From Patescibacteria group bacterium (GTDB lineage Bacteria > Patescibacteriota > Minisyncoccia > Phycocordibacterales > GWA1-40-21), in contig PLOL01000018.1 in assembly GCA_003142075.1 (NCBI GenBank), positions 1-35,041 on the forward strand: 35,041 nucleotides of DNA, in the 5' to 3' direction. Below are positions 15,942-19,838 of this stretch, piece by piece. The position numbers were made by a program, and so were the translations under genes. Under the pieces are notes generated by a model that was given only the letters and a program-made list of their open reading frames with translations, searched no databases and was not told the origin of the DNA. How positions within the stretch are numbered: the stretch's first letter is position 1; each line of letters begins with the position of its first letter.

Positions 15942-15968
15942 GAGCTAGGTCAAACCTAGCTCTTTTTT
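15942..15968 (+). terminator. terminator of the twin small-gene operon
   Basis: GAGCTAGGT CAA ACCTAGCTC (15942-15962) followed by TTTTTTATTT. Confidence 0.93.
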
Positions 15969-16539
15969 ATTTCTCCGTAAAAATTACCAATCTTTTCCAG
16001 CCGAGTTTAAATTTATCTATTTCTACAAAAAGATTCTCGCCTCCATTTTCTTCCGGCATTTCCGGATCATGATAATAAAAACCTTTCATTTCTCCATTTT
16101 CATTTTTATCATAACCGACGATTACAATTCCATGATGCCTGTCTTTCTCAGTAAAATATTTGTAGATTGAAACGATCGAAGGCAAACCTTCATCTATTTT
16201 TTTCGCCAATTTTTCAATTCCCTTTTTCAAAAATAAATCACTCATTCCTCCAGCTTTCATTTCTCCATTTTTAATATCGACATCAACAGTTTTAAATTCC
16301 TGCGCATACGCGGAAATCCCGTGGTTTCTAAAAAGCCTTATGACTTCGTTATGTTTCCAGAATTTGCCATCCCAGGCGCCGACAGAAGTTCCCTCTTTTA
16401 GCCAATCGTCGGCCGGAATTATTTTTTCTCCCAAAAATTCAGCCACCATTTTTATACACACAACAAGACAAGAGTGAGCTTTCCATTCAGGATCTATCAC
16501 ATCTGTGCGCTGAGAATAATATGGTACTTTTAATTTCAT
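15967..16539 (-). CDS. C39-like papain-fold peptidase-type protein
   Basis: This 190-aa protein begins VPYYSQRTDVIDPEWKAHSC, the usual opening of Peptidase_C39_2-like proteins. The candidate catalytic Cys is Cys24 (or Cys28) in HSCLVVCIKMVAEFLG. The His is in DRHHGIVIVGYD (135/136), and YYHDPE (156-160) carries an Asp. No signal peptide or transmembrane segment is seen, so it is predicted to be cytoplasmic or non-classically exported. It lies 111 nt downstream of pheT on the same strand, next to a synthetase that itself contains an NlpC/P60 papain-fold domain. Proteolytic activity is inferred; the usual SCGP-type Cys context is altered. Confidence 0.72.
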   Translation of the reverse strand: MKLKVPYYSQRTDVIDPEWKAHSCLVVCIKMVAEFLGEKIIPADDWLKEGTSVGAWDGKFWKHNEVIRLFRNHGISAYAQEFKTVDVDIKNGEMKAGGMSDLFLKKGIEKLAKKIDEGLPSIVSIYKYFTEKDRHHGIVIVGYDKNENGEMKGFYYHDPEMPEENGGENLFVEIDKFKLGWKRLVIFTEK

Positions 16540-16650: not shown

Positions 16651-19077
16651 TTATCTTACTTGCCAATCTTTTTTTGCATTCATTTTATCGGTAATTTTTT
16701 GCATAATTGCATTTACTTCATCATCAGAAAGAGTTTTTTCATATGACTGGAAAATTATTCTATATGCGTAAGAAGTTTTTTTAGTTCCATCTTCCAAAGT
16801 TTTTGTGAAAACATCGAACAATCTGTTTTTAATCATAAGTTCTCCAGCATTTTTATTTATTATTTCCAAAACTTCATCGGCTTTCGTTCCTTCCGGAGTA
16901 AATACAGCAATGTCGCGAATCATGAACGGAAATTGCGAAATCTTTTTAAATTTTAAGTCTCTACCATCTTCTTTTGGAAAATCATATTCTAAAACATCGG
17001 GTAAATTCTTAATCATATCTGAAATTAAAAATTCAGCGATATTATCTGGCACAAGCGTCCAACCCATTTTGATTAAATCAACCCCTAGTTTTTCTGACAA
17101 TACTTTTAAAGTATTGTCCAAAGTGTCTCTTTCTTTTGGTTTTTTAATTCCAACAGGATTTTTGACACCAATAACAAAGTTTTCATATTCACCTTTAAAA
17201 TCAAAAACGTGGCCAAATTCAAAAATTTTTATTTGTGGCATGTCTACAAGCTCAGAATATCTGGCATTAAATTCTAAAGCCTTTTCAAGACCCTCGTTAA
17301 GATTTGTTCTCAAATATTTTTTCTCAGGAGATAAAGGTTTCAACAACTCAATATCACCTTTATCTACGAAAGTATAATTCATCACCTCAGAAAAACCCTC
17401 CCCATATAAAAGGTCCCTTATTTTTTGTTTATAGGCAAAAACTTTATTTGTTTTTGGTTTTGTAGCTGAATCAGGGATATCAACATATTTTATTTTGTCG
17501 TAGCCATATATTCTTCCTATCTCTTCTGCTAGATCTTCTTTGATTCTCAAATCCAATCTTTCATCAGGAACAGTAATGACAAATCTTTCTTCATTGTCAG
17601 ACATTCTTCTGTATCCGACGATATTTTTAAAATATTTGCTTTCTTTAAGATTTTCTACGGACAATTTTCCTATCATTTCACTAGTATGCATTATTTTTCC
17701 ATCTCCAAGATACAATCCTTCATGATCAACTCCGCCTGGAACTTCAGTGCCTAGCAAAAATTCAACGCTTTTCGTGCGAATCGATTCTTCCGGAATCATT
17801 TTCCCCAAAACTTGAGAATAATTTTCTCCTTTAGTCGTTATTTCTATTTTTGTATTTACAAAAATAATATCTCCCGGCTTCAAGTCTTTCTCTTCAATCT
17901 TTTTTCCAAAAACAAATTGATCTATGCAAATCCTCGGAATCTGAACTCCAGCTTGTGCAAAAAGATAGCTGACAAAACCTGAGCAATCAAAAGCTTTCGG
18001 CGCATCGTAAGTTATGCTTGCTCCACGTTTATATGGAACTCCAACAAAAGTTGGTGCGAGTTTCAAAACCTCATCAATCGGTCTGACTTTCTTCCATTCA
18101 AAATTAAATCTGTCAAAAATCTTTTCAATATCAGAATCTTTTATTGGAACGCCTATTATTGAGCTGGCTTCTTTTGCTGAAATTCCAAGTTTAAATTTAT
18201 TCGCGCGTCTTGGATAATTGTCTACAACTTCTCCGACTTTTGTATCTTTTGTTCCAGCAATTTCAACAATTAATTTTGTGAGAATATCCATCGCTTCCCC
18301 GCAAAGCTGAGGCGTTAAATCATTTTCGTATCTTTTTGAAGCATCTGTTTGAATTTTAATTTTTTGTGCGGTTTTTCTTATGTTTACTGGGCTAAAATTC
18401 GCCGATTCCAAAATAATATTTTTTGTGTTGAGATCTAGCTCGGCAAAATCTCCGCCTTTTATGCCGGCAATCGCCAGCGGATTTTTTCCGTCCGTAATAA
18501 GCAGGACGCTTTCATCAAGTTCAACTTCTTTTTTATCAAGAGTTGTTATTTTTTGGCCTTTCCCGGCATTTTTAACGACAATTTCATTGCCGATTTTATC
18601 AGAATCAAAAGCATGCATCGGCTGACCGATTTCAAGCATGACAAAATTTGTCGCATCAACGATATTATTTATCGATCTCTGTCCGAGTGTTTCCAGCTTT
18701 TCCGCAAGCCATTTTGGCGAAGGACCGACTTTGATATTTTCAACTACTCTTCCAATATATCTTCTGCAAAGTCTTCCATCTTCAATTTTTACAGAAAGAT
18801 CTTTTAAAGTTTTTGAAATATTAAAATCTTTAAATTTTCTAGAATATTTTTCTATTTTAATATCAGCAATAGTTCCGAGTTCTCTTGCAATTCCTCTGTG
18901 ACATAAGCAACTATGATTTAAGTTTGGCGTAGCTTTTGTATCTATGACAACATCACCATTCATTTTTTCAGTTCCTTCAACTTCCATCGAATGCATTTCC
19001 AAAAGCTCTACCGTTTTTTCAACTTTCGGTGCTTTACCATTAAAATATTCATTTAACCATTTATAAGAAACTTTCAT
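16651..19077 (-). CDS. pheT: phenylalanyl-tRNA synthetase beta subunit with inserted NlpC/P60 domain
   Basis: 808 aa. The beta subunit of PheRS supports tRNA binding and editing. The N-terminus MKVSYKWLNEYF passes straight to VIDTKATPNLNHSC, so the usual OB-fold (EMAP-type) tRNA-binding domain is missing. The B3/B4 region spans about 100-270. The B5 region starts near 290 and is interrupted at about 332-492 by an NlpC/P60-like domain: FDCSGFVSYLF (Cys365), LKPGDIIF, GGVDHEGLYLGDGKIMHTS (His452, His464). B5 then resumes with ERFVITVPDERLDLRIKEDL and EEIGRIYGYDKI. The core and a C-terminal anticodon-binding domain (about 715-808) are intact. It follows pheS by 2 nt, so translation is probably coupled. 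The reading frame is open throughout, arguing against an assembly artefact. Confidence 0.96.
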   Translation of the reverse strand: MKVSYKWLNEYFNGKAPKVEKTVELLEMHSMEVEGTEKMNGDVVIDTKATPNLNHSCLCHRGIARELGTIADIKIEKYSRKFKDFNISKTLKDLSVKIEDGRLCRRYIGRVVENIKVGPSPKWLAEKLETLGQRSINNIVDATNFVMLEIGQPMHAFDSDKIGNEIVVKNAGKGQKITTLDKKEVELDESVLLITDGKNPLAIAGIKGGDFAELDLNTKNIILESANFSPVNIRKTAQKIKIQTDASKRYENDLTPQLCGEAMDILTKLIVEIAGTKDTKVGEVVDNYPRRANKFKLGISAKEASSIIGVPIKDSDIEKIFDRFNFEWKKVRPIDEVLKLAPTFVGVPYKRGASITYDAPKAFDCSGFVSYLFAQAGVQIPRICIDQFVFGKKIEEKDLKPGDIIFVNTKIEITTKGENYSQVLGKMIPEESIRTKSVEFLLGTEVPGGVDHEGLYLGDGKIMHTSEMIGKLSVENLKESKYFKNIVGYRRMSDNEERFVITVPDERLDLRIKEDLAEEIGRIYGYDKIKYVDIPDSATKPKTNKVFAYKQKIRDLLYGEGFSEVMNYTFVDKGDIELLKPLSPEKKYLRTNLNEGLEKALEFNARYSELVDMPQIKIFEFGHVFDFKGEYENFVIGVKNPVGIKKPKERDTLDNTLKVLSEKLGVDLIKMGWTLVPDNIAEFLISDMIKNLPDVLEYDFPKEDGRDLKFKKISQFPFMIRDIAVFTPEGTKADEVLEIINKNAGELMIKNRLFDVFTKTLEDGTKKTSYAYRIIFQSYEKTLSDDEVNAIMQKITDKMNAKKDWQVR

Positions 19078-19079
19078 TT

Positions 19080-19838
19080 TTAAAATTGATTTACTAATCT
19101 CAAATCTCCGGAATACAAAAGTCGGATATCATCTATTTCGTACTTGAGCATCACTAGTCTATCTACTCCGAAGCCGAAAGCAAAACCTTTCCATTCATTA
19201 GAATCTATTCCAACTTCGTTTAAAACTTTCGGATGTACCATACCTGCTCCAGCCAATTCAAGCCATCCGGAACCTCCACAAAGCTGACACTTACCTTCTC
19301 CTTTGCACTTAAAACAAGAAACATCTATCTCTACACCGGGTTCAACGAATGGAAAATAACTTGTTCTAAATCTAACATCAACATTTTTTTTCAAAAATTT
19401 ATCAAAAAAAGTATTTATTGTTGATTTCAAATCAGCTAAAGAAACATTTTTCGCTACAAGAAGACCTTCACAATGATGAAACATTGCTTCATGTCTTGCA
19501 TCCGTAGCTTCGTTTCTAAAAACTTTTCCAGGGCAAACCATTTTAAAAGGAGGTTTATTATTTTCCATAAAACGAATCTGCACGGCACTCGTTTGTGTTC
19601 TCATAAGTTTATCTCCTTTTTCACCAAAATTTTTATTTGGCTTAATCCAAAAAGTATCTTGCATATCGCGTGCTGGATGATCTTTAGGGACATTTAAAGC
19701 ATCGAAGTTATGATATTCGTCTTCAAGTTCTGGGCCATCAACTAGAGTAAAACCCATCTCAAAAAAGATTCTATTCATGTCGTCTATAACACGAGTGAGC
19801 GGGTGAATATGTATAGGTTTTTTCTCTTGTTCTTGCAT
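19080..19838 (-). CDS. pheS: phenylalanyl-tRNA synthetase alpha subunit, short form
   Basis: Catalytic subunit of PheRS, 252 aa against about 330-350 for typical relatives; the N-terminal coiled-coil arm that binds tRNA is absent. The start MQEQEKKPIHIHPLTRVID is at the usual beginning of the catalytic core. Motif 2 is VCPGKVFRNEATDARHEAMFH and motif 3 is GFAFGFGVDRLVMLKY. It also has CFKCKGEGKCQLCGGSGWLE (four Cys, zinc-knuckle-like), seen in some PheS proteins. A perfect TATAAT (19846-19851 on the complement) ends 7 nt before the ATG and no Shine-Dalgarno is present, indicating a leaderless start. pheT follows after 2 nt. Confidence 0.96.
   Translation of the reverse strand: MQEQEKKPIHIHPLTRVIDDMNRIFFEMGFTLVDGPELEDEYHNFDALNVPKDHPARDMQDTFWIKPNKNFGEKGDKLMRTQTSAVQIRFMENNKPPFKMVCPGKVFRNEATDARHEAMFHHCEGLLVAKNVSLADLKSTINTFFDKFLKKNVDVRFRTSYFPFVEPGVEIDVSCFKCKGEGKCQLCGGSGWLELAGAGMVHPKVLNEVGIDSNEWKGFAFGFGVDRLVMLKYEIDDIRLLYSGDLRLVNQF

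Follow-up and report, generated by a model that had tools for sequence, protein, structure and literature searches.

NlpC/P60 enzymes characterised so far cut the peptides of peptidoglycan. The beta subunit of bacterial phenylalanyl-tRNA synthetase (PheRS), the product of pheT (TIGR00472; Thermus structure 1pys, E. coli structure 3pco), carries the B3/B4, B5, CLM and FDX-ACB domains in this order and is encoded in a pheST operon. Two domains of this subunit, B1 and B5, are helix-turn-helix, DNA-binding-like domains, and the monomeric form of the enzyme was treated as mitochondrial in a 2010 review (PMC3275996). The pheT gene described here has the same domain order and operon, but its product lacks the B2 OB-fold and its B5 hairpin is opened by 163 residues that form an NlpC/P60 domain. 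No description of such a domain in PheRS, or in any other aminoacyl-tRNA synthetase, was found in the open-access literature; the fold is a known one, and its place and context are apparently new.

The window, that is, the whole stretch of DNA that was analysed (35,041 nucleotides), is located on contig C3 of a 710-kb Patescibacteria-type genome (G000), and its relevant features are collected in Table 1. The pheT product exceeds the cut-off of the NCBIfam family TIGR00472 pheT_bact (432 bits against 402.65). When this protein was scanned with Pfam, the CLM domain was present, the B5 match was split in two halves, and the OB-fold (EMAP/B2) had no match, its absence having already been noticed in the preliminary description. 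The insert lies in frame within the hairpin (wing) of B5, with both B5 halves and the rest of PheT left in place around it. It matches PF00877 (NLPC_P60) with an E-value of 2.1e-17 when the whole subunit is scanned and of 2.2e-19 when the insert is taken alone (69.8 bits, curated cut-off 23). Its junctions, ..FNFEWKK before and DNEERFVITVP after, were set by alignment with uninserted relatives; for instance, against the PheT of G004, an uninserted member of the same genus (..FVWKKDGDQFVVTVPVERLDL..), the insert is the exact extra stretch between WKK and DNEERFVITVP. The preliminary description had placed an NlpC/P60 domain within B5 at 17602-18081, without any break of the frame, and had numbered its catalytic residues Cys365, His452 and His464. 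The single open reading frame, the alignment and the PF00877 search that it had proposed as a check all agree with this reading; its limits differ by only 3-6 bases from the aligned ones, and its residue numbering is correct on translation.

An assembly error or chimera is excluded, since identical junctions occur in about 70 independent genomes, four of them of the same family. An intein or mobile insertion was rejected, as the only above-cut-off Pfam match of the insert is NLPC_P60, and so was a viral origin, because IMG/VR yields distant NlpC relatives only, whose identity reaches no more than 41% and covers short segments. The genome of the window also encodes, elsewhere, a separate stand-alone NlpC/P60 protein (a 145-aa frame, G000:C10:17475-17759, L002).

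Table 1. Features of the pheST locus and of the inserted domain (positions in the window)
Feature	Position	Strand	Basis or remark
pheT, PheRS beta without OB-fold (B2), with NlpC/P60 within B5	16651..19077	minus	single uninterrupted ORF, 808 aa
Inserted NlpC/P60 domain (clan CA, C40-like), PheT residues 331-493	17599..18087	minus	PF00877 and alignment with uninserted PheT
B5 first half, up to hairpin strand 1	18088..18201	minus	alignment, translation, model strand 327-331
B5 second half, from hairpin strand 2	17491..17598	minus	alignment, translation, model strand 498-502, PF03484 positions 33-67
B3/B4 editing domain	18253..18768	minus	PF03483 E 1.4e-63
FDX-ACB anticodon-binding domain	16654..16938	minus	PF03147 E 8.9e-21
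Cys365 codon, catalytic cysteine (FDCSGF)	17983..17985	minus	the same residue in every examined copy, embedded or free-standing
His452 codon, catalytic histidine (VDHEG)	17722..17724	minus	invariant in copies examined
His464 codon, third polar residue (MHTS)	17686..17688	minus	mostly His; Q, N, E, D or C in few
pheS, PheRS alpha	19080..19838	minus	PF01409 E 3.5e-97; pheT follows after 2 bp
C39-like papain-fold cysteine hydrolase gene	15967..16539	minus	PF13529 E 6.7e-11; 111 bp downstream of pheT

Membership of the insert in the NlpC/P60 family is indicated by its profile match, its papain-like fold, and the presence of the catalytic Cys-His pair together with a third polar residue. The AlphaFold model of the insert has a pLDDT of 90-98 except for the loop 411-440, and the model strands listed in Table 1 flank it, which corresponds to a B5 hairpin that has been opened. 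Among solved structures, Foldseek places the insert closest to autolysins of the NlpC/P60 family (7cfl_A, TMt 0.87), and the free-standing protein discussed below also falls with NlpC/P60 autolysins. Equivalents of Cys365 and His452 are found in all 98 B5-embedded rows (fused, free-standing and other-class), and the pairwise dN/dS of the insert, for pairs with unsaturated synonymous sites, is 0.03-0.17, similar to that of the PheT body; the earlier suggestion that the catalytic residues are kept is thus supported by conservation and by purifying selection. Judged from sequence, the insert is a complete and apparently active putative cysteine hydrolase of the NlpC/P60 family.

The insert profile is matched in 97 of the 397 genomes of the order. 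In 71 of the 397 the NlpC/P60 domain is fused at the same site of PheT (G220 and G377 being broken by contig ends), a survey of related pheT genes having been proposed in the preliminary description; 13 genomes have free-standing relatives of the same type, and the remaining matches are more distant stand-alone proteins. The family of the window contains members with the insertion (G002, G003, G005, G009) and without it (G001, G004, G006, G010, G011), and both states are found even within its genus, close relatives having a plain hairpin. Among the relatives with the insertion are Candidatus Taylorbacteria, Yonathbacteria and Vogelbacteria. A phylum-wide draw of 380 genomes added eight inserted PheTs of other classes, 929-970 aa long, with the insertion in the same hairpin, and the two of them that were scanned with Pfam have both the OB-fold and the insertion. 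Most PheRS beta subunits of the order lack the OB-fold; among the uninserted ones this was judged by length and alignment, and G152 (L223) is the exception that retains it. The proposal that the insert replaces the missing OB-fold, as a structural or tRNA-binding element, therefore fails on two counts: the OB-fold is equally absent where there is no insertion, in PheTs of this genus and of this order, and PheTs of other classes carry both together.

In a tree of the PheT bodies (FastTree, local support only), inserted and uninserted subunits interleave with 16 state changes. The grouping of the inserts largely follows that of their PheT bodies, which would make a history of repeated losses, or of recombinational replacement, likelier than one of many fresh insertions. 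The deep support of the insert tree is too weak to separate one origin from two (this order and the other classes).

Ten genomes (G375, G324, G175, G264, G060, G108, G236, G167, G211, G361) have B5-NlpC as a gene of its own, in which NlpC is flanked by nothing more than its two B5 halves, a number of these halves being shortened. When compared by blastp with the PheT of the window, these free copies start at residues 287-345 and end at 516-528; they open directly with a B5 half, no leader being visible by eye. In all ten the gene adjoins another of 383-414 aa that joins a PheS core and an FDX-ACB domain in one chain. This one-chain PheRS is the sole full PheS-like gene in the five genomes checked, and the genomes with the free copy and the one-chain enzyme have a single FDX-ACB match each, from which it follows that PheT is gone. 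Furthermore, gyrB is found at the locus in 10/10, with PEGA and glycosyltransferase genes arranged in G060 as they are in the window itself, which shows that the replacement of pheST took place in situ. The ten loci are thus a clear example of a bacterial (alpha beta)2 PheRS swapped in place for a monomer of the mitochondrial type. In the insert tree, the free-standing copies of these genomes are nested inside the fused ones. B5-NlpC is thus separable from the synthetase, charging being left to the one-chain PheRS in these genomes, and its retention after the loss of PheT suggests a job of its own in translation. Two other genomes, G147 and G187, combine an uninserted pheT with a free copy elsewhere, and G113 also has a free copy.

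One-chain PheRS frames of about 380-445 aa (PheS core and FDX-ACB) are common in the order, with or without an adjoining B5-NlpC gene; examples are L132:4807-5958, L137:5241-6386 and L140:5160-6299. A more diverged third group comprises about 13 free proteins of about 205-240 aa (L009/L032, L116, L123, L124, L126, L127, L146, L147, L149, L151, L152, L153, L155) with apparently B5-like ends around NlpC, these ends being a reading of the sequence and not a profile match. Its genes occur in varied contexts, two of them near trpS (e.g., in G004). The free-standing L116 groups with the free-standing set in the insert tree.

The gene downstream of pheT encodes a cytosolic C39-like protein that matches PF13529 with 43.4 bits (cut-off 24) and whose residues Q10, C24, H63, E81 and H136 are invariant in 25 homologues. 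Such a gene is found in the flank of 37/64 fused, 6/10 free-standing and 0/24 uninserted loci, the fused loci without it mostly having less than 600 bases of downstream flank and the uninserted ones mostly more than 2 kb. Genome-wide, it is present in 49/71 fused, 6/13 free-standing and 2/313 other genomes, which gives 55/84 with the insert, fused or free, against 2/313 without (Fisher p 3e-43, a value inflated by relatedness); in 10 supported independent contrasts, about five are for the linkage and none against (median p 0.06). The two exceptions are G030, an assembly without PheT, and G154, in which an uninserted PheT is directly followed by the C39-like gene. Survival as a free-standing gene and linkage to the C39-like gene together imply that the insert is neither a substitute for the OB-fold nor inert, and these facts point to a function that is coupled to PheRS yet independent of the PheT body. 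Both findings go beyond the preliminary description.

With regard to amino acid editing, the B3/B4 domain of the window keeps His155 and Glu224 (matched by motif to Thermus beta-His261 and beta-Glu334). Among the inserted PheTs, the equivalent of His155 is found in all and that of Glu224 in most, and the idea that the insert generally makes up for an inactive B3/B4 site was therefore rejected. Replacement of the editing-site Glu by Ser is confined to a single clade of 13 PheTs (rows L054, L061, L065, L067, L072, L073, L077, L078, L163, L165, L176, L186, L222), 12 with the insertion. Thermus beta-Glu334 recognises the hydroxyl of Tyr, so that canonical Tyr editing may be altered in this clade. 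The canonical D-aminoacyl-tRNA deacylase PF02580 has no match in any of the 397 genomes of the order, controls matching in 8 of 14. Since it is absent from the whole order, inserted or not, compensation by the insert for a lost PF02580 is a non-discriminating explanation.

The best explanation at present, to which a probability of about 35% may be given, is that the insert is a putative active thiol hydrolase that clears an ester or amide linked to PheRS, with the C39-like protein as its partner; what it says of chemistry and substrate are guesses built on the observed architecture. The B5 frame would hold the hydrolase at PheRS or tRNA-Phe, where its cysteine would attack the ester or amide carried by the product of the synthetase; hydrolysis of such bonds had already been suggested in the preliminary description. 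Most likely, it would act in this scheme as a quality-control deacylase or amidase, clearing a wrong or blocked aminoacyl adduct, or a short peptidyl one, that escapes the B3/B4 site; candidates are a D-amino acid, a non-protein amino acid or an N-acylated form. A subsequent step, or a substrate of related kind, would fall to the C39-like protein. For a proofreading role, the absence of PF02580 and the Ser clade are circumstantial signs at the level of sequence and would not amount to proof. It is important to note, as a point against it, that close relatives, including members of one genus with the window's own, manage with neither the insertion nor PF02580, and the insertion is therefore not essential for fidelity. 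In a wider and rather doubtful formulation, B5-NlpC, embedded or free, and the C39-like protein would form an unrecognised cysteine-based system acting on tRNA-Phe products, by proofreading or by aminoacyl transfer, that is kept without the remainder of PheT in a lineage lacking PF02580.

Among the rival explanations, the one that survives best, though unlikely, is that of a hydrolase of peptides or muropeptides stationed on PheRS in the cytosol, for which PheT would mainly be a scaffold: by cutting imported peptides, or peptides recycled from the cell wall, it would supply amino acids near the synthetase. All close structural and sequence relatives of the insert are peptidoglycan peptidases, the linked C39-like gene is also a relative of papain-fold peptidases, and Patescibacteria rely on hosts for building blocks; yet this explanation accounts neither for the use of the same B5 site across classes nor for the retention of the B5 frame in free copies after the loss of PheT. 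Distinctly less likely is an aminoacyl transferase, in which Phe would be transferred from Phe-tRNA to the cysteine, forming a thioester, and then handed on to an acceptor, the C39-like protein being a partner enzyme or the acceptor itself. Papain-like folds do include acyltransferases, and the donor would be channelled by PheRS. Weak matches, to BtrH_N for the C39-like gene and to LRAT for homologues that are embedded or free-standing, go in the same direction, but all of them stay under the cut-off, and the surroundings of pheT show no evident gene for an acceptor or for biosynthesis. The patchiness within the genus, with its many state changes on the PheT tree, and the co-varying C39-like partner gene might also suggest an accessory conflict or defence module anchored on an essential synthetase; this is improbable, since PADLOC gives no match for the inserted PheT or for the C39-like protein, the insert is under strong purifying selection, and it persists at the gyrB locus and not in mobile islands. 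Finally, a catalytically idle structural insert, that is, a globular domain added to a tRNA-binding subunit without OB-fold in order to compensate for it or to add tRNA contacts, is largely refuted by the invariant Cys and His, by the distribution of the OB-fold given above and by survival without the rest of PheT, and hardly deserves further credit.

Selection over a deep divergence and maintenance after the loss of the host subunit point to an unrecognised step tied to the charging of phenylalanine. If the substrate is an aminoacyl-tRNA, the insert would be, to our knowledge, the first case in translation of a proofreading or transfer enzyme of such kind with a papain fold; if it is a peptide, the synthetase would be serving as a docking platform.

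With the NlpC/P60 endopeptidases (PF00877, MEROPS C40), such as the catalytic domain of C. difficile Acd24020 (7cfl), RipB and MepS/Spr, the insert shares the whole domain, the Cys-His-His order and the fold. It differs from these peptidoglycan enzymes in being embedded in a cytosolic aminoacyl-tRNA synthetase, in having no signal peptide and no bSH3 or LysM partner seen, and in its (D/E)AP motif ahead of the catalytic Cys. The editing domains of synthetases (PheRS B3/B4, class Ia CP1) offer the parallel of a hydrolytic domain built into the enzyme, whereas the insert has an unrelated fold and a cysteine nucleophile, is a putative hydrolase, and stands in a subunit where B3/B4 is still present. 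As for the one-chain PheRS of the ten genomes, it unites the PheS core and FDX-ACB in one chain as does the mitochondrial-type monomeric enzyme (FARS2; TIGR00469), scoring 248.9 bits with this family, just under the curated cut-off of 258.35, and resembles the PheS-related ligase SrmL of NCBIfam as well (261 against a cut-off of 300); unlike the FARS2 type, it is bacterial and is accompanied by a relic B5-NlpC gene.
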